Assembly: GCA_950295325.1 (NCBI GenBank)
Contig: OX485805.1
Span: forward strand, 59,091,865 to 59,155,864
Source: Polytrichum commune
Lineage: Eukaryota; Streptophyta; Polytrichopsida; Polytrichales; Polytrichaceae
Direction of reading: 5' to 3'
DNA length: 64,000 bases
The position numbers and the translations under genes were made by a program. Of this stretch, positions 1,888 through 64,000 are shown in pieces. The notes beneath the pieces are model-generated. The model worked only from the letters and a program-made list of their open reading frames with translations. It ran no database searches and had not been told where the DNA came from. Positions within the stretch are counted from its first letter, which is position 1; the number at the start of each line of letters is the position of its first letter.

Positions 1888-1888
1888 T

Positions 1889-21266: not shown

Positions 21267-21271
21267 GGGTT

Positions 21272-21490: not shown

Positions 21491-21639
21491 TAAGCAAGCG
21501 TTTAGGCTAAATTAATAGAATTTAAGGGGTTAATCAAGATTTTCTTAATTAATTGGAAAATATTGGACTAAAATGGGGACAATAGGCATAAATGTTATAA
21601 GATGTAGGGTTTGGGGTTGCAAATAGTGGACTAATCAAC

Positions 21640-22134: not shown

Positions 22135-22156
22135 TTTAGGGTTTAGGGTTTAGGGG
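22135..22156 (+). repeat. Short (TTTAGGG)3 block capping the array
   Basis: Two perfect heptamers and a TTTAGGGG run directly into TTACAAGGG, the first module of the satellite array. It marks the array's proximal boundary. Confidence 0.95.
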
Positions 22157-22158
22157 TT

Positions 22159-22271
22159 ACAAGGGCGTTCTTTCAGTTTGGGGGGTGGGAGTCTCGAGCC
22201 GAGGTTTTGGCTACCCCCCCATTCTCGACCCTCGCGATCGCGGTGGTGGAGCCGGAAACTGATACACGTTT
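22159..22271 (+). repeat. 113-bp partial monomer at the array edge
   Basis: This segment is identical to the first 113 bases of the next monomer (22272-22384) and then restarts: ...GATACACGTTT joins ACAAGGGCG. It is a truncated copy produced by a local 113-bp duplication or slippage at the array border. Confidence 0.95.
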
Positions 22272-23537
22272 ACAAGGGCGTTCTTTCAGTTTGGGGGGTG
22301 GGAGTCTCGAGCCGAGGTTTTGGCTACCCCCCCATTCTCGACCCTCGCGATCGCGGTGGTGGAGCCGGAAACTGATACACGTTTTAGGGTTGGCGGATGC
22401 GGGGCCCGCAACGTCGCGGGCCCGCGAGACCCAAGTCTCGCGAGCGACTCATGCTTTAAAATGTTTGGCCCTCACCTCGTGGACCCCGTCGAGGGCAACC
22501 CGAAATGACCTTGCACTCGACGTTCGGACGTGGGTCGTAGTAGTTGCGAGCGGATGAAGTCATGACGTTGGGCGCTTCATCCATCCGTAGCGTGTGCGTA
22601 TTCTATCGTCCCCACGACCGCTACGAGAAGTACGGGCACCTGTAAAATTGCGGCACGTGGCCTTCGGGGTTGGCGGTACGAGTGAAAGTAACTTTTAGGG
22701 TTCCGGTAAAATGAAACCCTAGCTTCTAGGGTTTGCAGTAAAGTACACATATAGATTCTAGGGTTTCCAATAAAGTCGAAACCCTAAACCTACAGGGTTA
22801 ACGGTAAAGTAATAGGGTAGCCTCTAGGGTTTACTGTGGCTTTTAGGGTTTGGTGTGCCTTCCGGGGTTCGCCGTACCTGGTGTTAGGGTTTACCGTAGC
22901 GTTCATGGTCAACGGTGACCAGTTGACTTTGACCCCGGGTTGACTTGGACCTCGAGTTTAGGGTTTGACCTTGCGTTGACTATCGCTCGCCTTCGAGTTG
23001 ACTTTTTGCCGTCGTTGACTTCGTGGGCCCCGTGTTGACTCTTCAGGGTTACATGCGTGTCCCCAAAAAATGAGCATATTTATTTTTGAGAGTTTTTGGC
23101 CCAGGCCCCCTTTATAAAGCAAGGCCTATCCTACGGTGCAAGAAAAAGCCCTACAAGTGTCTTCATTTGTGAGATATGACTAGTTTGACTTTTGGGGGGT
23201 GAGTTGACTTTTTCTACTCTTAGGTGATTGGGAATTTGGATATCGTCTTGCCTTCAGGAAGGACACGGTGAATGTAATGATGTCCTTGGATTTTTCATTC
23301 GAGTGAAATTGAGAAAGTTATGGCCTTTTGAAAAAGCGAATGTAAGGGGGCTAACTTTGCGAGATGAATGAATTTGGGTTATCCGAAGGTACCTACCCCC
23401 CCATTTTGAAGGGTTCTAAACACAATGGAGTAAAAAAAAGCCCTACAAGTATCGCGAGTTGTGAGATTTTGAGGGGGTTGACTTTTTGACCACAAGAGTT
23501 GACTTTTTGACCACAAGAGTTGACTTTTTGCATGGTT
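22272..23537 (+). repeat. Variant first monomer
   Basis: It is full length (1,266 bp) but carries A in GAAATGACC (22503-22511), the base also found in the isolated module at 2093-2484, where all other monomers have G. It shares the other bases with the array, so it sits between the isolated copy and the homogenised units, as edge monomers often do. Confidence 0.85.
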
Positions 23538-23611
23538 ACAAGGGCGTTCTTTCAGTTTGGGGGGTGGGAGTCTCGAGCCGAGGTTTTGGCTACCCCCCCA
23601 TTCTCGACCCT

Positions 23612-23708
23612 CGCGATCGCGGTGGTGGAGCCGGAAACTGATACACGTTTTAGGGTTGGCGGATGCGGGGCCCGCAACGTCGCGGGCCCGCGAGACCCAA
23701 GTCTCGCG
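23612..23708 (+). repeat. Palindrome and hairpin cluster in each monomer
   Basis: Given for monomer 2; every monomer has it. CGCGATCGCG (23612-23621) is a perfect palindrome. GCGGGGCCCGC (23665-23675) and GCGGGCCCGCG (23682-23692) are near-palindromes that can pair with each other. CGCGAGAC-CCAA-GTCTCGCG (23689-23708) is a perfect 8-bp stem with a 4-nt loop. The same bases occur unchanged in the isolated module at 2093-2484. Confidence 0.9.
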
Positions 23709-23978
23709 AGCGACTCATGCTTTAAAATGTTTGGCCCTCACCTCGTGGACCCCGTCGAGGGCAACCCGAAATGGCCTTGCACTCGACGTTCGGACGTGGG
23801 TCGTAGTAGTTGCGAGCGGATGAAGTCATGACGTTGGGCGCTTCATCCATCCGTAGCGTGTGCGTATTCTATCGTCCCCACGACCGCTACGAGAAGTACG
23901 GGCACCTGTAAAATTGCGGCACGTGGCCTTCGGGGTTGGCGGTACGAGTGAAAGTAACTTTTAGGGTTCCGGTAAAAT

Positions 23979-24235
23979 GAAACCCTAGCTTCTAGGGTTT
24001 GCAGTAAAGTACACATATAGATTCTAGGGTTTCCAATAAAGTCGAAACCCTAAACCTACAGGGTTAACGGTAAAGTAATAGGGTAGCCTCTAGGGTTTAC
24101 TGTGGCTTTTAGGGTTTGGTGTGCCTTCCGGGGTTCGCCGTACCTGGTGTTAGGGTTTACCGTAGCGTTCATGGTCAACGGTGACCAGTTGACTTTGACC
24201 CCGGGTTGACTTGGACCTCGAGTTTAGGGTTTGAC
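23979..24235 (+). promoter_or_regulatory. Telo-box cluster in each monomer
   Basis: Monomer 2 coordinates. I count six TAGGGTTT and two AAACCCTA motifs within about 260 bp, plus degenerate ones such as CAGGGTTAAC, between recurring GTAAAGT text. In plants the telo-box AAACCCTA is bound by TRB-type Myb proteins and recurs in promoters of translation genes. Here the motifs are scrambled in both orientations, so this is not a simple telomere tract. Any binding is inference. Confidence 0.6.
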
Positions 24236-24320
24236 CTTGCGTTGACTATCGCTCGCCTTCGAGTTGACTTTTTGCCGTCGTTGACTTCGTGGGCCCCGTG
24301 TTGACTCTTCAGGGTTACAT
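24189..24320 (+). promoter_or_regulatory. W-box (TTGACY) cluster in each monomer
   Basis: Monomer 2 coordinates. Eight TTGACT/TTGACC cores occur here on the + strand. With those near 24451, 24470 and the five at 24744-24791 the monomer has about 15, against roughly 0.6 expected by chance per strand. TTGACY is the core bound by plant WRKY factors. Whether anything binds these copies is unknown. Confidence 0.55.
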
Positions 24321-24375
24321 GCGTGTCCCCAAAAAATGAGCATATTTATTTTTGAGAGTTTTTGGCCCAGGCCCC

Positions 24376-24385
24376 CTTTATAAAG
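24376..24385. promoter_or_regulatory. Conserved CTTTATAAAG palindrome
   Basis: Monomer 2 coordinates. It lies after GGCCCAGGCCCCC. The same arrangement, GGCCTAGGCCCCC then CTTTATAAAG, is kept in the old relic at 2775-2795 although the surrounding sequence has diverged. It resembles a TATA element; a promoter role is only a possibility. Confidence 0.4.
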
Positions 24386-24742
24386 CAAGGCCTATCCTAC
24401 GGTGCAAGAAAAAGCCCTACAAGTGTCTTCATTTGTGAGATATGACTAGTTTGACTTTTGGGGGGTGAGTTGACTTTTTCTACTCTTAGGTGATTGGGAA
24501 TTTGGATATCGTCTTGCCTTCAGGAAGGACACGGTGAATGTAATGATGTCCTTGGATTTTTCATTCGAGTGAAATTGAGAAAGTTATGGCCTTTTGAAAA
24601 AGCGAATGTAAGGGGGCTAACTTTGCGAGATGAATGAATTTGGGTTATCCGAAGGTACCTACCCCCCCATTTTGAAGGGTTCTAAACACAATGGAGTAAA
24701 AAAAAGCCCTACAAGTATCGCGAGTTGTGAGATTTTGAGGGG

Positions 24743-24796
24743 GTTGACTTTTTGACCACAAGAGTTGACTTTTTGACCACAAGAGTTGACTTTTTG
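24743..24796 (+). repeat. 21-bp minisatellite at the monomer end
   Basis: Monomer 2 coordinates. GTTGACTTTTTGACCACAAGA occurs twice and is followed by a third partial GTTGACTTTTTG; starts are at 24743, 24764 and 24785. It is the site of the only length change in the array. Confidence 0.95.
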
Positions 24797-27700
24797 CATG
24801 GTTACAAGGGCGTTCTTTCAGTTTGGGGGGTGGGAGTCTCGAGCCGAGGTTTTGGCTACCCCCCCATTCTCGACCCTCGCGATCGCGGTGGTGGAGCCGG
24901 AAACTGATACACGTTTTAGGGTTGGCGGATGCGGGGCCCGCAACGTCGCGGGCCCGCGAGACCCAAGTCTCGCGAGCGACTCATGCTTTAAAATGTTTGG
25001 CCCTCACCTCGTGGACCCCGTCGAGGGCAACCCGAAATGGCCTTGCACTCGACGTTCGGACGTGGGTCGTAGTAGTTGCGAGCGGATGAAGTCATGACGT
25101 TGGGCGCTTCATCCATCCGTAGCGTGTGCGTATTCTATCGTCCCCACGACCGCTACGAGAAGTACGGGCACCTGTAAAATTGCGGCACGTGGCCTTCGGG
25201 GTTGGCGGTACGAGTGAAAGTAACTTTTAGGGTTCCGGTAAAATGAAACCCTAGCTTCTAGGGTTTGCAGTAAAGTACACATATAGATTCTAGGGTTTCC
25301 AATAAAGTCGAAACCCTAAACCTACAGGGTTAACGGTAAAGTAATAGGGTAGCCTCTAGGGTTTACTGTGGCTTTTAGGGTTTGGTGTGCCTTCCGGGGT
25401 TCGCCGTACCTGGTGTTAGGGTTTACCGTAGCGTTCATGGTCAACGGTGACCAGTTGACTTTGACCCCGGGTTGACTTGGACCTCGAGTTTAGGGTTTGA
25501 CCTTGCGTTGACTATCGCTCGCCTTCGAGTTGACTTTTTGCCGTCGTTGACTTCGTGGGCCCCGTGTTGACTCTTCAGGGTTACATGCGTGTCCCCAAAA
25601 AATGAGCATATTTATTTTTGAGAGTTTTTGGCCCAGGCCCCCTTTATAAAGCAAGGCCTATCCTACGGTGCAAGAAAAAGCCCTACAAGTGTCTTCATTT
25701 GTGAGATATGACTAGTTTGACTTTTGGGGGGTGAGTTGACTTTTTCTACTCTTAGGTGATTGGGAATTTGGATATCGTCTTGCCTTCAGGAAGGACACGG
25801 TGAATGTAATGATGTCCTTGGATTTTTCATTCGAGTGAAATTGAGAAAGTTATGGCCTTTTGAAAAAGCGAATGTAAGGGGGCTAACTTTGCGAGATGAA
25901 TGAATTTGGGTTATCCGAAGGTACCTACCCCCCCATTTTGAAGGGTTCTAAACACAATGGAGTAAAAAAAAGCCCTACAAGTATCGCGAGTTGTGAGATT
26001 TTGAGGGGGTTGACTTTTTGACCACAAGAGTTGACTTTTTGACCACAAGAGTTGACTTTTTGCATGGTTACAAGGGCGTTCTTTCAGTTTGGGGGGTGGG
26101 AGTCTCGAGCCGAGGTTTTGGCTACCCCCCCATTCTCGACCCTCGCGATCGCGGTGGTGGAGCCGGAAACTGATACACGTTTTAGGGTTGGCGGATGCGG
26201 GGCCCGCAACGTCGCGGGCCCGCGAGACCCAAGTCTCGCGAGCGACTCATGCTTTAAAATGTTTGGCCCTCACCTCGTGGACCCCGTCGAGGGCAACCCG
26301 AAATGGCCTTGCACTCGACGTTCGGACGTGGGTCGTAGTAGTTGCGAGCGGATGAAGTCATGACGTTGGGCGCTTCATCCATCCGTAGCGTGTGCGTATT
26401 CTATCGTCCCCACGACCGCTACGAGAAGTACGGGCACCTGTAAAATTGCGGCACGTGGCCTTCGGGGTTGGCGGTACGAGTGAAAGTAACTTTTAGGGTT
26501 CCGGTAAAATGAAACCCTAGCTTCTAGGGTTTGCAGTAAAGTACACATATAGATTCTAGGGTTTCCAATAAAGTCGAAACCCTAAACCTACAGGGTTAAC
26601 GGTAAAGTAATAGGGTAGCCTCTAGGGTTTACTGTGGCTTTTAGGGTTTGGTGTGCCTTCCGGGGTTCGCCGTACCTGGTGTTAGGGTTTACCGTAGCGT
26701 TCATGGTCAACGGTGACCAGTTGACTTTGACCCCGGGTTGACTTGGACCTCGAGTTTAGGGTTTGACCTTGCGTTGACTATCGCTCGCCTTCGAGTTGAC
26801 TTTTTGCCGTCGTTGACTTCGTGGGCCCCGTGTTGACTCTTCAGGGTTACATGCGTGTCCCCAAAAAATGAGCATATTTATTTTTGAGAGTTTTTGGCCC
26901 AGGCCCCCTTTATAAAGCAAGGCCTATCCTACGGTGCAAGAAAAAGCCCTACAAGTGTCTTCATTTGTGAGATATGACTAGTTTGACTTTTGGGGGGTGA
27001 GTTGACTTTTTCTACTCTTAGGTGATTGGGAATTTGGATATCGTCTTGCCTTCAGGAAGGACACGGTGAATGTAATGATGTCCTTGGATTTTTCATTCGA
27101 GTGAAATTGAGAAAGTTATGGCCTTTTGAAAAAGCGAATGTAAGGGGGCTAACTTTGCGAGATGAATGAATTTGGGTTATCCGAAGGTACCTACCCCCCC
27201 ATTTTGAAGGGTTCTAAACACAATGGAGTAAAAAAAAGCCCTACAAGTATCGCGAGTTGTGAGATTTTGAGGGGGTTGACTTTTTGACCACAAGAGTTGA
27301 CTTTTTGACCACAAGAGTTGACTTTTTGCATGGTTACAAGGGCGTTCTTTCAGTTTGGGGGGTGGGAGTCTCGAGCCGAGGTTTTGGCTACCCCCCCATT
27401 CTCGACCCTCGCGATCGCGGTGGTGGAGCCGGAAACTGATACACGTTTTAGGGTTGGCGGATGCGGGGCCCGCAACGTCGCGGGCCCGCGAGACCCAAGT
27501 CTCGCGAGCGACTCATGCTTTAAAATGTTTGGCCCTCACCTCGTGGACCCCGTCGAGGGCAACCCGAAATGGCCTTGCACTCGACGTTCGGACGTGGGTC
27601 GTAGTAGTTGCGAGCGGATGAAGTCATGACGTTGGGCGCTTCATCCATCCGTAGCGTGTGCGTATTCTATCGTCCCCACGACCGCTACGAGAAGTACGGG

Positions 27701-30700
27701 CACCTGTAAAATTGCGGCACGTGGCCTTCGGGGTTGGCGGTACGAGTGAAAGTAACTTTTAGGGTTCCGGTAAAATGAAACCCTAGCTTCTAGGGTTTGC
27801 AGTAAAGTACACATATAGATTCTAGGGTTTCCAATAAAGTCGAAACCCTAAACCTACAGGGTTAACGGTAAAGTAATAGGGTAGCCTCTAGGGTTTACTG
27901 TGGCTTTTAGGGTTTGGTGTGCCTTCCGGGGTTCGCCGTACCTGGTGTTAGGGTTTACCGTAGCGTTCATGGTCAACGGTGACCAGTTGACTTTGACCCC
28001 GGGTTGACTTGGACCTCGAGTTTAGGGTTTGACCTTGCGTTGACTATCGCTCGCCTTCGAGTTGACTTTTTGCCGTCGTTGACTTCGTGGGCCCCGTGTT
28101 GACTCTTCAGGGTTACATGCGTGTCCCCAAAAAATGAGCATATTTATTTTTGAGAGTTTTTGGCCCAGGCCCCCTTTATAAAGCAAGGCCTATCCTACGG
28201 TGCAAGAAAAAGCCCTACAAGTGTCTTCATTTGTGAGATATGACTAGTTTGACTTTTGGGGGGTGAGTTGACTTTTTCTACTCTTAGGTGATTGGGAATT
28301 TGGATATCGTCTTGCCTTCAGGAAGGACACGGTGAATGTAATGATGTCCTTGGATTTTTCATTCGAGTGAAATTGAGAAAGTTATGGCCTTTTGAAAAAG
28401 CGAATGTAAGGGGGCTAACTTTGCGAGATGAATGAATTTGGGTTATCCGAAGGTACCTACCCCCCCATTTTGAAGGGTTCTAAACACAATGGAGTAAAAA
28501 AAAGCCCTACAAGTATCGCGAGTTGTGAGATTTTGAGGGGGTTGACTTTTTGACCACAAGAGTTGACTTTTTGACCACAAGAGTTGACTTTTTGCATGGT
28601 TACAAGGGCGTTCTTTCAGTTTGGGGGGTGGGAGTCTCGAGCCGAGGTTTTGGCTACCCCCCCATTCTCGACCCTCGCGATCGCGGTGGTGGAGCCGGAA
28701 ACTGATACACGTTTTAGGGTTGGCGGATGCGGGGCCCGCAACGTCGCGGGCCCGCGAGACCCAAGTCTCGCGAGCGACTCATGCTTTAAAATGTTTGGCC
28801 CTCACCTCGTGGACCCCGTCGAGGGCAACCCGAAATGGCCTTGCACTCGACGTTCGGACGTGGGTCGTAGTAGTTGCGAGCGGATGAAGTCATGACGTTG
28901 GGCGCTTCATCCATCCGTAGCGTGTGCGTATTCTATCGTCCCCACGACCGCTACGAGAAGTACGGGCACCTGTAAAATTGCGGCACGTGGCCTTCGGGGT
29001 TGGCGGTACGAGTGAAAGTAACTTTTAGGGTTCCGGTAAAATGAAACCCTAGCTTCTAGGGTTTGCAGTAAAGTACACATATAGATTCTAGGGTTTCCAA
29101 TAAAGTCGAAACCCTAAACCTACAGGGTTAACGGTAAAGTAATAGGGTAGCCTCTAGGGTTTACTGTGGCTTTTAGGGTTTGGTGTGCCTTCCGGGGTTC
29201 GCCGTACCTGGTGTTAGGGTTTACCGTAGCGTTCATGGTCAACGGTGACCAGTTGACTTTGACCCCGGGTTGACTTGGACCTCGAGTTTAGGGTTTGACC
29301 TTGCGTTGACTATCGCTCGCCTTCGAGTTGACTTTTTGCCGTCGTTGACTTCGTGGGCCCCGTGTTGACTCTTCAGGGTTACATGCGTGTCCCCAAAAAA
29401 TGAGCATATTTATTTTTGAGAGTTTTTGGCCCAGGCCCCCTTTATAAAGCAAGGCCTATCCTACGGTGCAAGAAAAAGCCCTACAAGTGTCTTCATTTGT
29501 GAGATATGACTAGTTTGACTTTTGGGGGGTGAGTTGACTTTTTCTACTCTTAGGTGATTGGGAATTTGGATATCGTCTTGCCTTCAGGAAGGACACGGTG
29601 AATGTAATGATGTCCTTGGATTTTTCATTCGAGTGAAATTGAGAAAGTTATGGCCTTTTGAAAAAGCGAATGTAAGGGGGCTAACTTTGCGAGATGAATG
29701 AATTTGGGTTATCCGAAGGTACCTACCCCCCCATTTTGAAGGGTTCTAAACACAATGGAGTAAAAAAAAGCCCTACAAGTATCGCGAGTTGTGAGATTTT
29801 GAGGGGGTTGACTTTTTGACCACAAGAGTTGACTTTTTGACCACAAGAGTTGACTTTTTGCATGGTTACAAGGGCGTTCTTTCAGTTTGGGGGGTGGGAG
29901 TCTCGAGCCGAGGTTTTGGCTACCCCCCCATTCTCGACCCTCGCGATCGCGGTGGTGGAGCCGGAAACTGATACACGTTTTAGGGTTGGCGGATGCGGGG
30001 CCCGCAACGTCGCGGGCCCGCGAGACCCAAGTCTCGCGAGCGACTCATGCTTTAAAATGTTTGGCCCTCACCTCGTGGACCCCGTCGAGGGCAACCCGAA
30101 ATGGCCTTGCACTCGACGTTCGGACGTGGGTCGTAGTAGTTGCGAGCGGATGAAGTCATGACGTTGGGCGCTTCATCCATCCGTAGCGTGTGCGTATTCT
30201 ATCGTCCCCACGACCGCTACGAGAAGTACGGGCACCTGTAAAATTGCGGCACGTGGCCTTCGGGGTTGGCGGTACGAGTGAAAGTAACTTTTAGGGTTCC
30301 GGTAAAATGAAACCCTAGCTTCTAGGGTTTGCAGTAAAGTACACATATAGATTCTAGGGTTTCCAATAAAGTCGAAACCCTAAACCTACAGGGTTAACGG
30401 TAAAGTAATAGGGTAGCCTCTAGGGTTTACTGTGGCTTTTAGGGTTTGGTGTGCCTTCCGGGGTTCGCCGTACCTGGTGTTAGGGTTTACCGTAGCGTTC
30501 ATGGTCAACGGTGACCAGTTGACTTTGACCCCGGGTTGACTTGGACCTCGAGTTTAGGGTTTGACCTTGCGTTGACTATCGCTCGCCTTCGAGTTGACTT
30601 TTTGCCGTCGTTGACTTCGTGGGCCCCGTGTTGACTCTTCAGGGTTACATGCGTGTCCCCAAAAAATGAGCATATTTATTTTTGAGAGTTTTTGGCCCAG

Positions 30701-33700
30701 GCCCCCTTTATAAAGCAAGGCCTATCCTACGGTGCAAGAAAAAGCCCTACAAGTGTCTTCATTTGTGAGATATGACTAGTTTGACTTTTGGGGGGTGAGT
30801 TGACTTTTTCTACTCTTAGGTGATTGGGAATTTGGATATCGTCTTGCCTTCAGGAAGGACACGGTGAATGTAATGATGTCCTTGGATTTTTCATTCGAGT
30901 GAAATTGAGAAAGTTATGGCCTTTTGAAAAAGCGAATGTAAGGGGGCTAACTTTGCGAGATGAATGAATTTGGGTTATCCGAAGGTACCTACCCCCCCAT
31001 TTTGAAGGGTTCTAAACACAATGGAGTAAAAAAAAGCCCTACAAGTATCGCGAGTTGTGAGATTTTGAGGGGGTTGACTTTTTGACCACAAGAGTTGACT
31101 TTTTGACCACAAGAGTTGACTTTTTGCATGGTTACAAGGGCGTTCTTTCAGTTTGGGGGGTGGGAGTCTCGAGCCGAGGTTTTGGCTACCCCCCCATTCT
31201 CGACCCTCGCGATCGCGGTGGTGGAGCCGGAAACTGATACACGTTTTAGGGTTGGCGGATGCGGGGCCCGCAACGTCGCGGGCCCGCGAGACCCAAGTCT
31301 CGCGAGCGACTCATGCTTTAAAATGTTTGGCCCTCACCTCGTGGACCCCGTCGAGGGCAACCCGAAATGGCCTTGCACTCGACGTTCGGACGTGGGTCGT
31401 AGTAGTTGCGAGCGGATGAAGTCATGACGTTGGGCGCTTCATCCATCCGTAGCGTGTGCGTATTCTATCGTCCCCACGACCGCTACGAGAAGTACGGGCA
31501 CCTGTAAAATTGCGGCACGTGGCCTTCGGGGTTGGCGGTACGAGTGAAAGTAACTTTTAGGGTTCCGGTAAAATGAAACCCTAGCTTCTAGGGTTTGCAG
31601 TAAAGTACACATATAGATTCTAGGGTTTCCAATAAAGTCGAAACCCTAAACCTACAGGGTTAACGGTAAAGTAATAGGGTAGCCTCTAGGGTTTACTGTG
31701 GCTTTTAGGGTTTGGTGTGCCTTCCGGGGTTCGCCGTACCTGGTGTTAGGGTTTACCGTAGCGTTCATGGTCAACGGTGACCAGTTGACTTTGACCCCGG
31801 GTTGACTTGGACCTCGAGTTTAGGGTTTGACCTTGCGTTGACTATCGCTCGCCTTCGAGTTGACTTTTTGCCGTCGTTGACTTCGTGGGCCCCGTGTTGA
31901 CTCTTCAGGGTTACATGCGTGTCCCCAAAAAATGAGCATATTTATTTTTGAGAGTTTTTGGCCCAGGCCCCCTTTATAAAGCAAGGCCTATCCTACGGTG
32001 CAAGAAAAAGCCCTACAAGTGTCTTCATTTGTGAGATATGACTAGTTTGACTTTTGGGGGGTGAGTTGACTTTTTCTACTCTTAGGTGATTGGGAATTTG
32101 GATATCGTCTTGCCTTCAGGAAGGACACGGTGAATGTAATGATGTCCTTGGATTTTTCATTCGAGTGAAATTGAGAAAGTTATGGCCTTTTGAAAAAGCG
32201 AATGTAAGGGGGCTAACTTTGCGAGATGAATGAATTTGGGTTATCCGAAGGTACCTACCCCCCCATTTTGAAGGGTTCTAAACACAATGGAGTAAAAAAA
32301 AGCCCTACAAGTATCGCGAGTTGTGAGATTTTGAGGGGGTTGACTTTTTGACCACAAGAGTTGACTTTTTGACCACAAGAGTTGACTTTTTGCATGGTTA
32401 CAAGGGCGTTCTTTCAGTTTGGGGGGTGGGAGTCTCGAGCCGAGGTTTTGGCTACCCCCCCATTCTCGACCCTCGCGATCGCGGTGGTGGAGCCGGAAAC
32501 TGATACACGTTTTAGGGTTGGCGGATGCGGGGCCCGCAACGTCGCGGGCCCGCGAGACCCAAGTCTCGCGAGCGACTCATGCTTTAAAATGTTTGGCCCT
32601 CACCTCGTGGACCCCGTCGAGGGCAACCCGAAATGGCCTTGCACTCGACGTTCGGACGTGGGTCGTAGTAGTTGCGAGCGGATGAAGTCATGACGTTGGG
32701 CGCTTCATCCATCCGTAGCGTGTGCGTATTCTATCGTCCCCACGACCGCTACGAGAAGTACGGGCACCTGTAAAATTGCGGCACGTGGCCTTCGGGGTTG
32801 GCGGTACGAGTGAAAGTAACTTTTAGGGTTCCGGTAAAATGAAACCCTAGCTTCTAGGGTTTGCAGTAAAGTACACATATAGATTCTAGGGTTTCCAATA
32901 AAGTCGAAACCCTAAACCTACAGGGTTAACGGTAAAGTAATAGGGTAGCCTCTAGGGTTTACTGTGGCTTTTAGGGTTTGGTGTGCCTTCCGGGGTTCGC
33001 CGTACCTGGTGTTAGGGTTTACCGTAGCGTTCATGGTCAACGGTGACCAGTTGACTTTGACCCCGGGTTGACTTGGACCTCGAGTTTAGGGTTTGACCTT
33101 GCGTTGACTATCGCTCGCCTTCGAGTTGACTTTTTGCCGTCGTTGACTTCGTGGGCCCCGTGTTGACTCTTCAGGGTTACATGCGTGTCCCCAAAAAATG
33201 AGCATATTTATTTTTGAGAGTTTTTGGCCCAGGCCCCCTTTATAAAGCAAGGCCTATCCTACGGTGCAAGAAAAAGCCCTACAAGTGTCTTCATTTGTGA
33301 GATATGACTAGTTTGACTTTTGGGGGGTGAGTTGACTTTTTCTACTCTTAGGTGATTGGGAATTTGGATATCGTCTTGCCTTCAGGAAGGACACGGTGAA
33401 TGTAATGATGTCCTTGGATTTTTCATTCGAGTGAAATTGAGAAAGTTATGGCCTTTTGAAAAAGCGAATGTAAGGGGGCTAACTTTGCGAGATGAATGAA
33501 TTTGGGTTATCCGAAGGTACCTACCCCCCCATTTTGAAGGGTTCTAAACACAATGGAGTAAAAAAAAGCCCTACAAGTATCGCGAGTTGTGAGATTTTGA
33601 GGGGGTTGACTTTTTGACCACAAGAGTTGACTTTTTGACCACAAGAGTTGACTTTTTGCATGGTTACAAGGGCGTTCTTTCAGTTTGGGGGGTGGGAGTC

Positions 33701-51700: not shown

Positions 51701-52655
51701 ATCCGTAGCGTGTGCGTATTCTATCGTCCCCACGACCGCTACGAGAAGTACGGGCACCTGTAAAATTGCGGCACGTGGCCTTCGGGGTTGGCGGTACGAG
51801 TGAAAGTAACTTTTAGGGTTCCGGTAAAATGAAACCCTAGCTTCTAGGGTTTGCAGTAAAGTACACATATAGATTCTAGGGTTTCCAATAAAGTCGAAAC
51901 CCTAAACCTACAGGGTTAACGGTAAAGTAATAGGGTAGCCTCTAGGGTTTACTGTGGCTTTTAGGGTTTGGTGTGCCTTCCGGGGTTCGCCGTACCTGGT
52001 GTTAGGGTTTACCGTAGCGTTCATGGTCAACGGTGACCAGTTGACTTTGACCCCGGGTTGACTTGGACCTCGAGTTTAGGGTTTGACCTTGCGTTGACTA
52101 TCGCTCGCCTTCGAGTTGACTTTTTGCCGTCGTTGACTTCGTGGGCCCCGTGTTGACTCTTCAGGGTTACATGCGTGTCCCCAAAAAATGAGCATATTTA
52201 TTTTTGAGAGTTTTTGGCCCAGGCCCCCTTTATAAAGCAAGGCCTATCCTACGGTGCAAGAAAAAGCCCTACAAGTGTCTTCATTTGTGAGATATGACTA
52301 GTTTGACTTTTGGGGGGTGAGTTGACTTTTTCTACTCTTAGGTGATTGGGAATTTGGATATCGTCTTGCCTTCAGGAAGGACACGGTGAATGTAATGATG
52401 TCCTTGGATTTTTCATTCGAGTGAAATTGAGAAAGTTATGGCCTTTTGAAAAAGCGAATGTAAGGGGGCTAACTTTGCGAGATGAATGAATTTGGGTTAT
52501 CCGAAGGTACCTACCCCCCCATTTTGAAGGGTTCTAAACACAATGGAGTAAAAAAAAGCCCTACAAGTATCGCGAGTTGTGAGATTTTGAGGGGGTTGAC
52601 TTTTTGACCACAAGAGTTGACTTTTTGACCACAAGAGTTGACTTTTTGCATGGTT

Positions 52656-53900
52656 ACAAGGGCGTTCTTTCAGTTTGGGGGGTGGGAGTCTCGAGCCGAG
52701 GTTTTGGCTACCCCCCCATTCTCGACCCTCGCGATCGCGGTGGTGGAGCCGGAAACTGATACACGTTTTAGGGTTGGCGGATGCGGGGCCCGCAACGTCG
52801 CGGGCCCGCGAGACCCAAGTCTCGCGAGCGACTCATGCTTTAAAATGTTTGGCCCTCACCTCGTGGACCCCGTCGAGGGCAACCCGAAATGGCCTTGCAC
52901 TCGACGTTCGGACGTGGGTCGTAGTAGTTGCGAGCGGATGAAGTCATGACGTTGGGCGCTTCATCCATCCGTAGCGTGTGCGTATTCTATCGTCCCCACG
53001 ACCGCTACGAGAAGTACGGGCACCTGTAAAATTGCGGCACGTGGCCTTCGGGGTTGGCGGTACGAGTGAAAGTAACTTTTAGGGTTCCGGTAAAATGAAA
53101 CCCTAGCTTCTAGGGTTTGCAGTAAAGTACACATATAGATTCTAGGGTTTCCAATAAAGTCGAAACCCTAAACCTACAGGGTTAACGGTAAAGTAATAGG
53201 GTAGCCTCTAGGGTTTACTGTGGCTTTTAGGGTTTGGTGTGCCTTCCGGGGTTCGCCGTACCTGGTGTTAGGGTTTACCGTAGCGTTCATGGTCAACGGT
53301 GACCAGTTGACTTTGACCCCGGGTTGACTTGGACCTCGAGTTTAGGGTTTGACCTTGCGTTGACTATCGCTCGCCTTCGAGTTGACTTTTTGCCGTCGTT
53401 GACTTCGTGGGCCCCGTGTTGACTCTTCAGGGTTACATGCGTGTCCCCAAAAAATGAGCATATTTATTTTTGAGAGTTTTTGGCCCAGGCCCCCTTTATA
53501 AAGCAAGGCCTATCCTACGGTGCAAGAAAAAGCCCTACAAGTGTCTTCATTTGTGAGATATGACTAGTTTGACTTTTGGGGGGTGAGTTGACTTTTTCTA
53601 CTCTTAGGTGATTGGGAATTTGGATATCGTCTTGCCTTCAGGAAGGACACGGTGAATGTAATGATGTCCTTGGATTTTTCATTCGAGTGAAATTGAGAAA
53701 GTTATGGCCTTTTGAAAAAGCGAATGTAAGGGGGCTAACTTTGCGAGATGAATGAATTTGGGTTATCCGAAGGTACCTACCCCCCCATTTTGAAGGGTTC
53801 TAAACACAATGGAGTAAAAAAAAGCCCTACAAGTATCGCGAGTTGTGAGATTTTGAGGGGGTTGACTTTTTGACCACAAGAGTTGACTTTTTGCATGGTT
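52656..53900 (+). repeat. Short 1,245-bp monomer (minus one 21-bp subrepeat)
   Basis: This monomer has only one GTTGACTTTTTGACCACAAGA unit before the final GTTGACTTTTTG (about 53870-53893); all others have two. The next monomers return to 1,266 bp. It is the only length variant among the 33 and so gives a landmark inside the array. Confidence 0.95.
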
Positions 53901-56900
53901 ACAAGGGCGTTCTTTCAGTTTGGGGGGTGGGAGTCTCGAGCCGAGGTTTTGGCTACCCCCCCATTCTCGACCCTCGCGATCGCGGTGGTGGAGCCGGAAA
54001 CTGATACACGTTTTAGGGTTGGCGGATGCGGGGCCCGCAACGTCGCGGGCCCGCGAGACCCAAGTCTCGCGAGCGACTCATGCTTTAAAATGTTTGGCCC
54101 TCACCTCGTGGACCCCGTCGAGGGCAACCCGAAATGGCCTTGCACTCGACGTTCGGACGTGGGTCGTAGTAGTTGCGAGCGGATGAAGTCATGACGTTGG
54201 GCGCTTCATCCATCCGTAGCGTGTGCGTATTCTATCGTCCCCACGACCGCTACGAGAAGTACGGGCACCTGTAAAATTGCGGCACGTGGCCTTCGGGGTT
54301 GGCGGTACGAGTGAAAGTAACTTTTAGGGTTCCGGTAAAATGAAACCCTAGCTTCTAGGGTTTGCAGTAAAGTACACATATAGATTCTAGGGTTTCCAAT
54401 AAAGTCGAAACCCTAAACCTACAGGGTTAACGGTAAAGTAATAGGGTAGCCTCTAGGGTTTACTGTGGCTTTTAGGGTTTGGTGTGCCTTCCGGGGTTCG
54501 CCGTACCTGGTGTTAGGGTTTACCGTAGCGTTCATGGTCAACGGTGACCAGTTGACTTTGACCCCGGGTTGACTTGGACCTCGAGTTTAGGGTTTGACCT
54601 TGCGTTGACTATCGCTCGCCTTCGAGTTGACTTTTTGCCGTCGTTGACTTCGTGGGCCCCGTGTTGACTCTTCAGGGTTACATGCGTGTCCCCAAAAAAT
54701 GAGCATATTTATTTTTGAGAGTTTTTGGCCCAGGCCCCCTTTATAAAGCAAGGCCTATCCTACGGTGCAAGAAAAAGCCCTACAAGTGTCTTCATTTGTG
54801 AGATATGACTAGTTTGACTTTTGGGGGGTGAGTTGACTTTTTCTACTCTTAGGTGATTGGGAATTTGGATATCGTCTTGCCTTCAGGAAGGACACGGTGA
54901 ATGTAATGATGTCCTTGGATTTTTCATTCGAGTGAAATTGAGAAAGTTATGGCCTTTTGAAAAAGCGAATGTAAGGGGGCTAACTTTGCGAGATGAATGA
55001 ATTTGGGTTATCCGAAGGTACCTACCCCCCCATTTTGAAGGGTTCTAAACACAATGGAGTAAAAAAAAGCCCTACAAGTATCGCGAGTTGTGAGATTTTG
55101 AGGGGGTTGACTTTTTGACCACAAGAGTTGACTTTTTGACCACAAGAGTTGACTTTTTGCATGGTTACAAGGGCGTTCTTTCAGTTTGGGGGGTGGGAGT
55201 CTCGAGCCGAGGTTTTGGCTACCCCCCCATTCTCGACCCTCGCGATCGCGGTGGTGGAGCCGGAAACTGATACACGTTTTAGGGTTGGCGGATGCGGGGC
55301 CCGCAACGTCGCGGGCCCGCGAGACCCAAGTCTCGCGAGCGACTCATGCTTTAAAATGTTTGGCCCTCACCTCGTGGACCCCGTCGAGGGCAACCCGAAA
55401 TGGCCTTGCACTCGACGTTCGGACGTGGGTCGTAGTAGTTGCGAGCGGATGAAGTCATGACGTTGGGCGCTTCATCCATCCGTAGCGTGTGCGTATTCTA
55501 TCGTCCCCACGACCGCTACGAGAAGTACGGGCACCTGTAAAATTGCGGCACGTGGCCTTCGGGGTTGGCGGTACGAGTGAAAGTAACTTTTAGGGTTCCG
55601 GTAAAATGAAACCCTAGCTTCTAGGGTTTGCAGTAAAGTACACATATAGATTCTAGGGTTTCCAATAAAGTCGAAACCCTAAACCTACAGGGTTAACGGT
55701 AAAGTAATAGGGTAGCCTCTAGGGTTTACTGTGGCTTTTAGGGTTTGGTGTGCCTTCCGGGGTTCGCCGTACCTGGTGTTAGGGTTTACCGTAGCGTTCA
55801 TGGTCAACGGTGACCAGTTGACTTTGACCCCGGGTTGACTTGGACCTCGAGTTTAGGGTTTGACCTTGCGTTGACTATCGCTCGCCTTCGAGTTGACTTT
55901 TTGCCGTCGTTGACTTCGTGGGCCCCGTGTTGACTCTTCAGGGTTACATGCGTGTCCCCAAAAAATGAGCATATTTATTTTTGAGAGTTTTTGGCCCAGG
56001 CCCCCTTTATAAAGCAAGGCCTATCCTACGGTGCAAGAAAAAGCCCTACAAGTGTCTTCATTTGTGAGATATGACTAGTTTGACTTTTGGGGGGTGAGTT
56101 GACTTTTTCTACTCTTAGGTGATTGGGAATTTGGATATCGTCTTGCCTTCAGGAAGGACACGGTGAATGTAATGATGTCCTTGGATTTTTCATTCGAGTG
56201 AAATTGAGAAAGTTATGGCCTTTTGAAAAAGCGAATGTAAGGGGGCTAACTTTGCGAGATGAATGAATTTGGGTTATCCGAAGGTACCTACCCCCCCATT
56301 TTGAAGGGTTCTAAACACAATGGAGTAAAAAAAAGCCCTACAAGTATCGCGAGTTGTGAGATTTTGAGGGGGTTGACTTTTTGACCACAAGAGTTGACTT
56401 TTTGACCACAAGAGTTGACTTTTTGCATGGTTACAAGGGCGTTCTTTCAGTTTGGGGGGTGGGAGTCTCGAGCCGAGGTTTTGGCTACCCCCCCATTCTC
56501 GACCCTCGCGATCGCGGTGGTGGAGCCGGAAACTGATACACGTTTTAGGGTTGGCGGATGCGGGGCCCGCAACGTCGCGGGCCCGCGAGACCCAAGTCTC
56601 GCGAGCGACTCATGCTTTAAAATGTTTGGCCCTCACCTCGTGGACCCCGTCGAGGGCAACCCGAAATGGCCTTGCACTCGACGTTCGGACGTGGGTCGTA
56701 GTAGTTGCGAGCGGATGAAGTCATGACGTTGGGCGCTTCATCCATCCGTAGCGTGTGCGTATTCTATCGTCCCCACGACCGCTACGAGAAGTACGGGCAC
56801 CTGTAAAATTGCGGCACGTGGCCTTCGGGGTTGGCGGTACGAGTGAAAGTAACTTTTAGGGTTCCGGTAAAATGAAACCCTAGCTTCTAGGGTTTGCAGT

Positions 56901-59900
56901 AAAGTACACATATAGATTCTAGGGTTTCCAATAAAGTCGAAACCCTAAACCTACAGGGTTAACGGTAAAGTAATAGGGTAGCCTCTAGGGTTTACTGTGG
57001 CTTTTAGGGTTTGGTGTGCCTTCCGGGGTTCGCCGTACCTGGTGTTAGGGTTTACCGTAGCGTTCATGGTCAACGGTGACCAGTTGACTTTGACCCCGGG
57101 TTGACTTGGACCTCGAGTTTAGGGTTTGACCTTGCGTTGACTATCGCTCGCCTTCGAGTTGACTTTTTGCCGTCGTTGACTTCGTGGGCCCCGTGTTGAC
57201 TCTTCAGGGTTACATGCGTGTCCCCAAAAAATGAGCATATTTATTTTTGAGAGTTTTTGGCCCAGGCCCCCTTTATAAAGCAAGGCCTATCCTACGGTGC
57301 AAGAAAAAGCCCTACAAGTGTCTTCATTTGTGAGATATGACTAGTTTGACTTTTGGGGGGTGAGTTGACTTTTTCTACTCTTAGGTGATTGGGAATTTGG
57401 ATATCGTCTTGCCTTCAGGAAGGACACGGTGAATGTAATGATGTCCTTGGATTTTTCATTCGAGTGAAATTGAGAAAGTTATGGCCTTTTGAAAAAGCGA
57501 ATGTAAGGGGGCTAACTTTGCGAGATGAATGAATTTGGGTTATCCGAAGGTACCTACCCCCCCATTTTGAAGGGTTCTAAACACAATGGAGTAAAAAAAA
57601 GCCCTACAAGTATCGCGAGTTGTGAGATTTTGAGGGGGTTGACTTTTTGACCACAAGAGTTGACTTTTTGACCACAAGAGTTGACTTTTTGCATGGTTAC
57701 AAGGGCGTTCTTTCAGTTTGGGGGGTGGGAGTCTCGAGCCGAGGTTTTGGCTACCCCCCCATTCTCGACCCTCGCGATCGCGGTGGTGGAGCCGGAAACT
57801 GATACACGTTTTAGGGTTGGCGGATGCGGGGCCCGCAACGTCGCGGGCCCGCGAGACCCAAGTCTCGCGAGCGACTCATGCTTTAAAATGTTTGGCCCTC
57901 ACCTCGTGGACCCCGTCGAGGGCAACCCGAAATGGCCTTGCACTCGACGTTCGGACGTGGGTCGTAGTAGTTGCGAGCGGATGAAGTCATGACGTTGGGC
58001 GCTTCATCCATCCGTAGCGTGTGCGTATTCTATCGTCCCCACGACCGCTACGAGAAGTACGGGCACCTGTAAAATTGCGGCACGTGGCCTTCGGGGTTGG
58101 CGGTACGAGTGAAAGTAACTTTTAGGGTTCCGGTAAAATGAAACCCTAGCTTCTAGGGTTTGCAGTAAAGTACACATATAGATTCTAGGGTTTCCAATAA
58201 AGTCGAAACCCTAAACCTACAGGGTTAACGGTAAAGTAATAGGGTAGCCTCTAGGGTTTACTGTGGCTTTTAGGGTTTGGTGTGCCTTCCGGGGTTCGCC
58301 GTACCTGGTGTTAGGGTTTACCGTAGCGTTCATGGTCAACGGTGACCAGTTGACTTTGACCCCGGGTTGACTTGGACCTCGAGTTTAGGGTTTGACCTTG
58401 CGTTGACTATCGCTCGCCTTCGAGTTGACTTTTTGCCGTCGTTGACTTCGTGGGCCCCGTGTTGACTCTTCAGGGTTACATGCGTGTCCCCAAAAAATGA
58501 GCATATTTATTTTTGAGAGTTTTTGGCCCAGGCCCCCTTTATAAAGCAAGGCCTATCCTACGGTGCAAGAAAAAGCCCTACAAGTGTCTTCATTTGTGAG
58601 ATATGACTAGTTTGACTTTTGGGGGGTGAGTTGACTTTTTCTACTCTTAGGTGATTGGGAATTTGGATATCGTCTTGCCTTCAGGAAGGACACGGTGAAT
58701 GTAATGATGTCCTTGGATTTTTCATTCGAGTGAAATTGAGAAAGTTATGGCCTTTTGAAAAAGCGAATGTAAGGGGGCTAACTTTGCGAGATGAATGAAT
58801 TTGGGTTATCCGAAGGTACCTACCCCCCCATTTTGAAGGGTTCTAAACACAATGGAGTAAAAAAAAGCCCTACAAGTATCGCGAGTTGTGAGATTTTGAG
58901 GGGGTTGACTTTTTGACCACAAGAGTTGACTTTTTGACCACAAGAGTTGACTTTTTGCATGGTTACAAGGGCGTTCTTTCAGTTTGGGGGGTGGGAGTCT
59001 CGAGCCGAGGTTTTGGCTACCCCCCCATTCTCGACCCTCGCGATCGCGGTGGTGGAGCCGGAAACTGATACACGTTTTAGGGTTGGCGGATGCGGGGCCC
59101 GCAACGTCGCGGGCCCGCGAGACCCAAGTCTCGCGAGCGACTCATGCTTTAAAATGTTTGGCCCTCACCTCGTGGACCCCGTCGAGGGCAACCCGAAATG
59201 GCCTTGCACTCGACGTTCGGACGTGGGTCGTAGTAGTTGCGAGCGGATGAAGTCATGACGTTGGGCGCTTCATCCATCCGTAGCGTGTGCGTATTCTATC
59301 GTCCCCACGACCGCTACGAGAAGTACGGGCACCTGTAAAATTGCGGCACGTGGCCTTCGGGGTTGGCGGTACGAGTGAAAGTAACTTTTAGGGTTCCGGT
59401 AAAATGAAACCCTAGCTTCTAGGGTTTGCAGTAAAGTACACATATAGATTCTAGGGTTTCCAATAAAGTCGAAACCCTAAACCTACAGGGTTAACGGTAA
59501 AGTAATAGGGTAGCCTCTAGGGTTTACTGTGGCTTTTAGGGTTTGGTGTGCCTTCCGGGGTTCGCCGTACCTGGTGTTAGGGTTTACCGTAGCGTTCATG
59601 GTCAACGGTGACCAGTTGACTTTGACCCCGGGTTGACTTGGACCTCGAGTTTAGGGTTTGACCTTGCGTTGACTATCGCTCGCCTTCGAGTTGACTTTTT
59701 GCCGTCGTTGACTTCGTGGGCCCCGTGTTGACTCTTCAGGGTTACATGCGTGTCCCCAAAAAATGAGCATATTTATTTTTGAGAGTTTTTGGCCCAGGCC
59801 CCCTTTATAAAGCAAGGCCTATCCTACGGTGCAAGAAAAAGCCCTACAAGTGTCTTCATTTGTGAGATATGACTAGTTTGACTTTTGGGGGGTGAGTTGA

Positions 59901-62900
59901 CTTTTTCTACTCTTAGGTGATTGGGAATTTGGATATCGTCTTGCCTTCAGGAAGGACACGGTGAATGTAATGATGTCCTTGGATTTTTCATTCGAGTGAA
60001 ATTGAGAAAGTTATGGCCTTTTGAAAAAGCGAATGTAAGGGGGCTAACTTTGCGAGATGAATGAATTTGGGTTATCCGAAGGTACCTACCCCCCCATTTT
60101 GAAGGGTTCTAAACACAATGGAGTAAAAAAAAGCCCTACAAGTATCGCGAGTTGTGAGATTTTGAGGGGGTTGACTTTTTGACCACAAGAGTTGACTTTT
60201 TGACCACAAGAGTTGACTTTTTGCATGGTTACAAGGGCGTTCTTTCAGTTTGGGGGGTGGGAGTCTCGAGCCGAGGTTTTGGCTACCCCCCCATTCTCGA
60301 CCCTCGCGATCGCGGTGGTGGAGCCGGAAACTGATACACGTTTTAGGGTTGGCGGATGCGGGGCCCGCAACGTCGCGGGCCCGCGAGACCCAAGTCTCGC
60401 GAGCGACTCATGCTTTAAAATGTTTGGCCCTCACCTCGTGGACCCCGTCGAGGGCAACCCGAAATGGCCTTGCACTCGACGTTCGGACGTGGGTCGTAGT
60501 AGTTGCGAGCGGATGAAGTCATGACGTTGGGCGCTTCATCCATCCGTAGCGTGTGCGTATTCTATCGTCCCCACGACCGCTACGAGAAGTACGGGCACCT
60601 GTAAAATTGCGGCACGTGGCCTTCGGGGTTGGCGGTACGAGTGAAAGTAACTTTTAGGGTTCCGGTAAAATGAAACCCTAGCTTCTAGGGTTTGCAGTAA
60701 AGTACACATATAGATTCTAGGGTTTCCAATAAAGTCGAAACCCTAAACCTACAGGGTTAACGGTAAAGTAATAGGGTAGCCTCTAGGGTTTACTGTGGCT
60801 TTTAGGGTTTGGTGTGCCTTCCGGGGTTCGCCGTACCTGGTGTTAGGGTTTACCGTAGCGTTCATGGTCAACGGTGACCAGTTGACTTTGACCCCGGGTT
60901 GACTTGGACCTCGAGTTTAGGGTTTGACCTTGCGTTGACTATCGCTCGCCTTCGAGTTGACTTTTTGCCGTCGTTGACTTCGTGGGCCCCGTGTTGACTC
61001 TTCAGGGTTACATGCGTGTCCCCAAAAAATGAGCATATTTATTTTTGAGAGTTTTTGGCCCAGGCCCCCTTTATAAAGCAAGGCCTATCCTACGGTGCAA
61101 GAAAAAGCCCTACAAGTGTCTTCATTTGTGAGATATGACTAGTTTGACTTTTGGGGGGTGAGTTGACTTTTTCTACTCTTAGGTGATTGGGAATTTGGAT
61201 ATCGTCTTGCCTTCAGGAAGGACACGGTGAATGTAATGATGTCCTTGGATTTTTCATTCGAGTGAAATTGAGAAAGTTATGGCCTTTTGAAAAAGCGAAT
61301 GTAAGGGGGCTAACTTTGCGAGATGAATGAATTTGGGTTATCCGAAGGTACCTACCCCCCCATTTTGAAGGGTTCTAAACACAATGGAGTAAAAAAAAGC
61401 CCTACAAGTATCGCGAGTTGTGAGATTTTGAGGGGGTTGACTTTTTGACCACAAGAGTTGACTTTTTGACCACAAGAGTTGACTTTTTGCATGGTTACAA
61501 GGGCGTTCTTTCAGTTTGGGGGGTGGGAGTCTCGAGCCGAGGTTTTGGCTACCCCCCCATTCTCGACCCTCGCGATCGCGGTGGTGGAGCCGGAAACTGA
61601 TACACGTTTTAGGGTTGGCGGATGCGGGGCCCGCAACGTCGCGGGCCCGCGAGACCCAAGTCTCGCGAGCGACTCATGCTTTAAAATGTTTGGCCCTCAC
61701 CTCGTGGACCCCGTCGAGGGCAACCCGAAATGGCCTTGCACTCGACGTTCGGACGTGGGTCGTAGTAGTTGCGAGCGGATGAAGTCATGACGTTGGGCGC
61801 TTCATCCATCCGTAGCGTGTGCGTATTCTATCGTCCCCACGACCGCTACGAGAAGTACGGGCACCTGTAAAATTGCGGCACGTGGCCTTCGGGGTTGGCG
61901 GTACGAGTGAAAGTAACTTTTAGGGTTCCGGTAAAATGAAACCCTAGCTTCTAGGGTTTGCAGTAAAGTACACATATAGATTCTAGGGTTTCCAATAAAG
62001 TCGAAACCCTAAACCTACAGGGTTAACGGTAAAGTAATAGGGTAGCCTCTAGGGTTTACTGTGGCTTTTAGGGTTTGGTGTGCCTTCCGGGGTTCGCCGT
62101 ACCTGGTGTTAGGGTTTACCGTAGCGTTCATGGTCAACGGTGACCAGTTGACTTTGACCCCGGGTTGACTTGGACCTCGAGTTTAGGGTTTGACCTTGCG
62201 TTGACTATCGCTCGCCTTCGAGTTGACTTTTTGCCGTCGTTGACTTCGTGGGCCCCGTGTTGACTCTTCAGGGTTACATGCGTGTCCCCAAAAAATGAGC
62301 ATATTTATTTTTGAGAGTTTTTGGCCCAGGCCCCCTTTATAAAGCAAGGCCTATCCTACGGTGCAAGAAAAAGCCCTACAAGTGTCTTCATTTGTGAGAT
62401 ATGACTAGTTTGACTTTTGGGGGGTGAGTTGACTTTTTCTACTCTTAGGTGATTGGGAATTTGGATATCGTCTTGCCTTCAGGAAGGACACGGTGAATGT
62501 AATGATGTCCTTGGATTTTTCATTCGAGTGAAATTGAGAAAGTTATGGCCTTTTGAAAAAGCGAATGTAAGGGGGCTAACTTTGCGAGATGAATGAATTT
62601 GGGTTATCCGAAGGTACCTACCCCCCCATTTTGAAGGGTTCTAAACACAATGGAGTAAAAAAAAGCCCTACAAGTATCGCGAGTTGTGAGATTTTGAGGG
62701 GGTTGACTTTTTGACCACAAGAGTTGACTTTTTGACCACAAGAGTTGACTTTTTGCATGGTTACAAGGGCGTTCTTTCAGTTTGGGGGGTGGGAGTCTCG
62801 AGCCGAGGTTTTGGCTACCCCCCCATTCTCGACCCTCGCGATCGCGGTGGTGGAGCCGGAAACTGATACACGTTTTAGGGTTGGCGGATGCGGGGCCCGC

Positions 62901-64000
62901 AACGTCGCGGGCCCGCGAGACCCAAGTCTCGCGAGCGACTCATGCTTTAAAATGTTTGGCCCTCACCTCGTGGACCCCGTCGAGGGCAACCCGAAATGGC
63001 CTTGCACTCGACGTTCGGACGTGGGTCGTAGTAGTTGCGAGCGGATGAAGTCATGACGTTGGGCGCTTCATCCATCCGTAGCGTGTGCGTATTCTATCGT
63101 CCCCACGACCGCTACGAGAAGTACGGGCACCTGTAAAATTGCGGCACGTGGCCTTCGGGGTTGGCGGTACGAGTGAAAGTAACTTTTAGGGTTCCGGTAA
63201 AATGAAACCCTAGCTTCTAGGGTTTGCAGTAAAGTACACATATAGATTCTAGGGTTTCCAATAAAGTCGAAACCCTAAACCTACAGGGTTAACGGTAAAG
63301 TAATAGGGTAGCCTCTAGGGTTTACTGTGGCTTTTAGGGTTTGGTGTGCCTTCCGGGGTTCGCCGTACCTGGTGTTAGGGTTTACCGTAGCGTTCATGGT
63401 CAACGGTGACCAGTTGACTTTGACCCCGGGTTGACTTGGACCTCGAGTTTAGGGTTTGACCTTGCGTTGACTATCGCTCGCCTTCGAGTTGACTTTTTGC
63501 CGTCGTTGACTTCGTGGGCCCCGTGTTGACTCTTCAGGGTTACATGCGTGTCCCCAAAAAATGAGCATATTTATTTTTGAGAGTTTTTGGCCCAGGCCCC
63601 CTTTATAAAGCAAGGCCTATCCTACGGTGCAAGAAAAAGCCCTACAAGTGTCTTCATTTGTGAGATATGACTAGTTTGACTTTTGGGGGGTGAGTTGACT
63701 TTTTCTACTCTTAGGTGATTGGGAATTTGGATATCGTCTTGCCTTCAGGAAGGACACGGTGAATGTAATGATGTCCTTGGATTTTTCATTCGAGTGAAAT
63801 TGAGAAAGTTATGGCCTTTTGAAAAAGCGAATGTAAGGGGGCTAACTTTGCGAGATGAATGAATTTGGGTTATCCGAAGGTACCTACCCCCCCATTTTGA
63901 AGGGTTCTAAACACAATGGAGTAAAAAAAAGCCCTACAAGTATCGCGAGTTGTGAGATTTTGAGGGGGTTGACTTTTTGACCACAAGAGTTGACTTTTTG

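Follow-up and report, generated by a model that had tools for sequence, protein, structure and literature searches.

A subtelomeric satellite at a chromosome end of Polytrichum commune: recent homogenisation of a unit composed of telomere-joined modules

The right end of contig C3 in the Polytrichum commune assembly (GCA_950295325.1, contig OX485805.1) consists of a 1,266-bp sequence repeated head to tail up to the last nucleotide, and our analysis indicates that this array is real: a subtelomeric satellite, homogenised recently, whose composite unit goes back to modules joined at telomere-like junctions. The window, meaning the whole stretch of 64,000 nucleotides analysed here, is C3:59091865-59155864, the final 64 kb of a contig of 59,155,864 bp, and its end is also the contig end. 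The 41.8 kb of near-perfect repeat that it contains are real as assembled. The junctions with telomeric repeats and the existence of separate arrays specific to individual chromosome ends are more interesting than the length of the monomer, which had first attracted attention.

The identity of the sequence with itself over window positions 22272-64000 was 0.976 at a shift of 1266, and about 0.33 at shifts of 1265 and 1267. Cutting at TTACAAGGGCGTTCTTTCAG delimited 33 head-to-tail monomers from position 22270, as many as the original prediction had counted; the start that it placed at 22272 has to be corrected to 22270 for the first monomer, or to 22157 for the 113-bp partial copy that precedes it. 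In the pairwise comparison, 30 complete 1,266-bp monomers (23 + 7) were identical letter for letter, the edge monomer differed by one substitution, one monomer measured 1,245 bp, and the last was cut. The claim that the monomers are identical except for the edge monomer and a 21-bp deletion thus stands as far as identity is concerned, whereas the "deletion" does not, since a longer relative of the second part of the unit (module B) at the left end of C6 has two 21-bp subrepeats, like the 1,245-bp form, so that the 1,266-bp form looks like a 21-bp expansion. The array is composed as follows.

22135..22156, + strand: telomeric tract of 22 nt with three TTTAGGG units, ending in GGGG, directly ahead of the array
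22157..22269, + strand: partial copy, unit positions 1-113
22270..23535, + strand: edge monomer, 1,266 bp, with a single difference (position 239, G>A)
22270..23048, + strand: module A of the edge monomer, unit 1-779, terminus ...CTTCAGGG
23049..23535, + strand: module B of the edge monomer, unit 780-1266, a longer element of which only the shortened beginning is left; CATGG and the following A start come after it
23536..52653, + strand: 23 identical 1,266-bp monomers
52654..53898, + strand: 1,245-bp monomer, with two 21-bp subrepeats instead of three
53899..62760, + strand: seven identical 1,266-bp monomers
62761..64000, + strand: last monomer, 1,240 of 1,266 bp, identical over its 1,240 bp, cut at the end of contig C3

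The tract at 22135..22156 is read as a former, healed chromosome end. There is no telomere beyond the array at this contig end, and the 33 monomers are either a lower bound or belong to an array distorted by the manner in which the contig ends.

The unit is a composite of module A (positions 1-779) and module B (780-1266), both of which open with TTACA(A/T)G; accordingly, GGTTACA(A/T)G occurs twice per monomer, at position 1 (A) and position 780 (B). The monomer is long because two modules were joined, and module B of the unit is a cut-back form, because its longer relative at the left end of C6 runs on beyond the point where the unit's copy stops. Module-B relatives also stand alone on C1, C2, C3, C4, C6, and C7 (69-93% identity), some of them deep inside chromosomes, and at the left end of C5, module A is followed by a second module different from B. 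The original prediction had described the monomer as modular, with GC hairpins, telomere motifs, and W-box cores. Such motifs are indeed present, with 15 TTGAC on the + strand and one on the - strand (shuffle mean 2.15 on +) and six copies of TAGGGTTT on the + strand (shuffle mean 0.06), but they were inherited from the parent modules and do not in themselves point to a regulatory role; stretches resembling GTTGACTTT are found in module-B relatives elsewhere too. What it had overlooked was that two truncated modules meet at telomere-like junctions, that other ends carry arrays of their own, and that the contig end cuts the last monomer. We recognised no description of this satellite in the literature searched. 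We rejected a structured-RNA or tRNA repeat, because Rfam gave no match at E<=1 for the portion of the array inside window 1-27000 and ARAGORN no tRNA gene anywhere in the window, and a coding repeat was rejected as well, since the longest of the 15 open reading frames (ORFs; >=50 aa) overlapping window 22000-26000 has only 116 aa.

The assembly comprises 407.8 Mb in 64 contigs, with seven large contigs (C1-C7; 77.9, 70.3, 59.2, 59.1, 52.9, 44.7, and 42.1 Mb), and the tips of all seven, equal to 14 chromosome ends, were fetched. A search with the C3 monomer found array units of 1,266 bp at C3 right, 1,245 bp at C6 left, 925 bp at C5 left, and 1,245 bp at C7 right. In the readable sequence of C6 left, the tandem unit has seven complete copies, all identical, and the unit of C5 left, which is 79% like the first 793 bp of the C3 unit, shows 18 starts with 17/17 complete units identical. 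The right end of C7 holds two full units, one substitution apart, and two units truncated near positions 588 and 627; there, a truncated unit is followed by GGGTTTAGGG and then by a fresh unit that is itself truncated into a telomere of about 0.9 kb. At C6 right, 465 bp of the unit, identical to the C3 edge monomer, are followed by the telomere. In the readable genome, a 23-mer specific to the unit is matched exactly at 49 places (35 at C3 right, nine at C6 left, one at C6 right, and four at C7 right), and the confinement of all 49 to four chromosome ends agrees with the subtelomeric place proposed earlier. Head-to-tail homogeneous arrays thus lie next to the ends of several chromosomes, as in a subtelomeric satellite. 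Since the units differ at fixed positions (239/269/604: G, T, C in the C3 array; A, T, T at C7; A, C, T at C6 left), each array is homogeneous internally yet distinct from the others, with the C3 edge monomer intermediate, since it shares A239 with the units of C6 left and C7 right. The near-zero divergence inside each array, together with the different units at different ends, supports the suggestion of recent amplification or conversion.

The arrangement at telomeric tracts follows a rule. We oriented the 14 tips with the chromosome end to the right, collapsed identical 80-nt contexts, and scored TTACAWR sites for a TAGG(G) tract within 12 nt upstream, TTTAGGG being the telomere repeat type of this genome. 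On the outward strand, 26 of the 76 distinct contexts had such a tract, compared with 2 of 32 on the other strand, and six further pieces (the four internal module-B relatives, the internal C4 copies of module A, and one small contig) gave 7/20 vs 0/14, with an orientation partly chosen by the match itself. Among 39 hand-listed module starts, 30 stand directly after at least one telomeric unit, 15 of them after exactly one, often GGGTTTAGGG. The inner end of module A is mostly fixed, as 16 of 21 alignments (C5 left and C6 left excluded) begin at unit position 1, while the outer ends vary, with alignments stopping near unit positions 54, 102-118, 157, 266, 354, 402, 465, 510, 588, 592, and 627. 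Each of the four arrays opens with unit position 1 immediately behind a telomeric tract, whose length is 22 nt at C3 right, 25 at C5 left, 10 at C6 left, and 20 at C7 right; at C3, the contact with the tract is made by the 113-bp partial copy, and the first full monomer follows this copy without one.

Some internal copies have similar surroundings. The module-B relatives at C1:18.51, C1:36.26, C6:14.17, and C4:3.87 Mb each follow an intact or slightly changed telomeric tract, and may be either old insertions or relics of former ends. Deep in the left part of C4, at C4:6872376-6873410, there are three module-A relatives oriented outward-right, which may mark a former chromosome end that a fusion or an inversion relocated.

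The explanation that we favour, with guarded confidence, is a two-step origin of the satellite, in which chromosome ends were re-capped and extended by modules, and a pair of modules, A+B, was then amplified. In the first step, ends would lose sequence and be re-capped by a short telomeric tract, as the many junctions suggest, and a new module would join the re-capping tract by its fixed inner end, TTACAWGGG; repetition would produce stacks of modules truncated at variable outer points. In the second step, a stack would reach the order A-B-A at some ends, and recombination between the two A copies would multiply A+B until a homogeneous array resulted, the unit being different from end to end. 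This might occur through an excised A+B circle that is copied by rolling replication from the short telomere, or through unequal sister exchange, and later recombination between ends would spread pieces among them. The uniformity of the arrays, their end-specific units, the mostly fixed inner and variable outer module ends, the outward polarity at chromosome ends, and the telomere-capped copies are observed; we infer the order of the steps, the A-B-A intermediate, and the circle. The ancestral state of the edge monomer fits unequal exchange, and the constant phase at the telomeric tract fits terminal growth; both may act.

Several points weigh against this explanation. Only some chromosome ends are readable, because several tips are masked or lack a telomere: TTTAGGG caps are found at 7 of the 14 ends (both ends of C1 and of C7, the left ends of C2 and C4, and the right end of C6), N was returned for the C3-left, C5-left, and C6-left tips, and blocks of N lie inside the fetched C2-right, C4-right, and C5-right stretches. 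Nine of the 39 listed starts have no telomeric unit directly ahead, although three of these nine have a tract with one changed base; the list is biased toward starts preceded by GG, and its members are not independent, because many are copies of each other. Five of the 21 module-A alignments have a later first position (19 in two of them, and 186, 211, and 451 in the remaining three), the B|A junction at C3 has GG only and no telomeric tract, and two internal sites on C4 (3.87 and 6.87 Mb) face the far arm, opposite to the pattern at chromosome ends. A single clean rolling-circle event is also insufficient, because the edge monomer keeps the ancestral base, as unequal exchange predicts.

A possible, though rather doubtful, alternative is that the modules are the 5'-truncated 3' ends of a telomere-attaching retroelement, like the endonuclease-deficient Penelope-like elements known as Terminons. 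A minus-strand RNA of such an element would end in a fold plus CCCTAAACCC (expected 3' end ...TTGTAACCCTAAACCC), pair with the G-rich overhang, and be reverse-transcribed onto the chromosome end. This would agree with the fixed end beside telomeric repeats, the variable cut opposite, the outward polarity at chromosome ends, the GGGTTTAGGG link, which is commonly 10 nt, and the four internal copies that likewise begin with intact or slightly changed telomeric tracts. The start itself is conserved: leaving out the first seven letters, which belong to the search pattern, nucleotides 8-14 have a mean identity of 0.63 among five families (five of eight representatives), compared with 0.26 in groups of five from 62 tract-less TTACAWR sites, where 0 of 2000 groups reach 0.63, and with 0.30 in later 7-nt blocks (n=27). 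A later block at 57-63, around a C-rich motif, is however equally conserved (0.64). In the A family (10 of 15 ends), 5 of the 12 pairs of the outer stem are changed on both sides in some sequence, the whole structure has 16 cells changed on both sides against a shuffled mean of 6.8, with slid versions never above 5, and RNAalifold recovers the stem unprompted. Yet the further pair types (8) do not exceed those of shuffles (8.4), the structure was drawn from one of the sequences tested, and the independent stem events are few, because the signal mostly separates two groups. The terminal stem proposed for the B family (12 of 18 ends) is weaker and was missed by RNAalifold, and we rejected it.

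The searches for the machinery of such an element found none in the stretches that they covered. Rfam found no hammerhead in window 1-27000 (E<=1) or at eight loci (E<=0.5), and with Pfam no reverse transcriptase came up either in minus-strand frames across window 2100-21990 or in the sequence upstream of the C2 copy of the associated ORF; a genome-wide RVT_1 search scored only 150 of the 2620 candidates, and full-length elements were not delimited. The associated ORF itself, which has module-B starts on its inner side in the window as well as at C2 left, C4 3.87 Mb, and C1 18.5 Mb, has no Pfam match, and its AlphaFold model (mean predicted local distance difference test score 38.3) is unusable, so we rejected it as the element's enzyme. 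Its link with the modules is unproven, because no module was matched in the 1.2 kb examined downstream of a long copy at C2 13.36 Mb. In the window, this ORF of 464 aa occupies 19841-21232 on the - strand, with its N-terminal side against a telomeric tract; it has at least 89 matches genome-wide, and the fuller copies (C2 13.36 Mb and C5 52.37 Mb) carry an acidic N-terminal part.

Terminons are described as having reverse-complement telomeric repeats at the 3' end, 5' truncation by telomeric stretches, and head-to-tail arrays (PMC6431247). The modules here are alike in having telomeric repeats at their fixed end (26/76 vs 2/32; 30/39), where an RNA 3' end is only presumed, and in forming head-to-tail stacks of copies whose opposite end is truncated by telomeric repeats. 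They differ in that no hammerhead was found in window 1-27000 or at the eight loci and no reverse transcriptase is linked to them in the stretches searched, and the unit is a two-module composite without telling ORFs. Because no hammerhead was found there and no reverse transcriptase in the stretches examined, we do not class the satellite as a Terminon; a Terminon-like retroelement origin is plausible.

We would give a similarly doubtful place to ordinary satellite evolution, in which a local duplication becomes uniform by gene conversion and unequal sister-chromatid exchange, the telomeric junctions being old and uninvolved. It accounts for monomers that are identical or nearly so inside each array, for the 21-bp slippage variant, and for the edge-monomer variant, which is expected at array borders. 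Alone, however, it leaves unexplained why all four arrays share their start position after a telomeric tract and how a fresh unit came to stand on a truncated unit at C7 right.

Perfect repeats that exceed common read lengths are hard to assemble, and the contig stops mid-monomer without a telomere, but a shorter or more varied array that was over-extended or over-polished at the contig end is improbable, given that the C7-right units end in telomere, units differ between ends at fixed sites, the internal 1,245-bp monomer was kept, and 0 of the 49 exact 23-mer matches fall in small contigs.

Returning to the two-step origin, several known systems offer points of comparison. Plant subtelomeric satellites are head-to-tail, homogeneous, and near chromosome ends, and the arrays here share these features; the monomer here, however, is longer, has internal telomere-like junctions, and forms end-specific units. 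Type I survivors of yeast amplify Y', a long coding element with short internal telomeric tracts. The blocks described here are likewise subtelomeric, contain short internal telomeric tracts, and are stacked at ends, but their unit has 0.9-1.3 kb, whereas Y' is long and coding. Templates for alternative lengthening of telomeres (TALT) are blocks with telomere-like borders that are used at chromosome ends under this pathway, according to the reports on telomerase-deleted Caenorhabditis elegans (PMC4595603) and mouse embryonic stem cells (PMC7889907). Here too, a unit with telomere-like borders was multiplied at chromosome ends; the arrays differ in being present at 4 of 14 ends, in having three unit lengths, and in coexisting with a telomerase gene and TTTAGGG caps. 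For the second step, the nearest model by analogy is the roll-and-spread formation of recombinational telomeres in Kluyveromyces lactis (PMC3486848). The homogeneous terminal array is consistent with copying from a single source, but the circle is only inferred in our case, and units vary by end rather than coming from one source everywhere.

One exon for the telomerase RNA-binding domain, with an open frame, is present in the genome. Since a telomerase gene is thus apparently present, the arrays are probably neither essential nor the sole means of end maintenance, and the array, if active at all, would be an expendable, recombination-prone buffer beneath the telomere. A bolder proposal, which we consider unlikely, is that a telomerase-bearing land plant naturally extends its ends by recombination or retroelements, with elements that have a conserved, structured end and a built-in telomere template of 1.5 repeats (CCCTAAACCC) attaching to cut-back ends, and with pairs of them rolled out into end-specific arrays. 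The chromosome ends keep a readable record that resembles truncation, re-capping, and regrowth beside normal telomeres; if this reading holds, they would provide a plant system for the addition of modules to telomeres and for terminal amplification with telomerase left undeleted, and they illustrate a route to a long-monomer satellite through stacked, telomere-joined fragments.

The inner part of the window contains further modules and telomeric tracts.

1825..1886, + strand: interstitial telomeric tract on which the inner stack of modules is built
1887..2080, + strand: truncated A'-type module, 93% to the C5-left unit over 143 bp
2091..2487, + strand: truncated copy of module A, aligned with the array unit over 402 bp at 97.5%, flanked by two GGGTTTAGGG links
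2498..2715, + strand: truncated module of a second B-like family, flanked by GGGTTTAGGG links
2725..3325, + strand: first part of a longer relative of module B (72% to unit B), with relatives at C1, C2, C6, and C7
21232..21269, + strand: interstitial telomeric tract bordering on the ORF at its N-terminal side, ahead of another module start
21270..22134, + strand: module belonging to a different family (TTACAAGGCCATCC...), which contains tandem subrepeats of 141 bp and is 84% to C6 right

Window 2720-17980 holds long subtelomeric pieces common to C2 left and C3 right, the longest at 88-98% identity. A 78-bp tandem repeat at window 10337-10759 (5.4 copies, 96% matches) is open on both strands, and an inverted repeat at window 19035-19259, which scores 34 bits to MIR6217 (gathering threshold 110), is probably a small inverted-repeat transposon. 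Elsewhere in the genome, C2 right, C4 right, C5 right, C3 left, and C7 left have another repeat in common, with long pieces at 93-99% identity; masked blocks lie beside it at four of these five ends, and C7 left also bears a telomere. The genome has many light-harvesting genes, one of which matches chlorophyll a-b binding chains in the PDB; two of its best three chains, 8htu and 7xqp, are moss structures. Finally, the interval C5:1751760-1846160 contains 14 light-harvesting gene matches with equal scores within about 95 kb.

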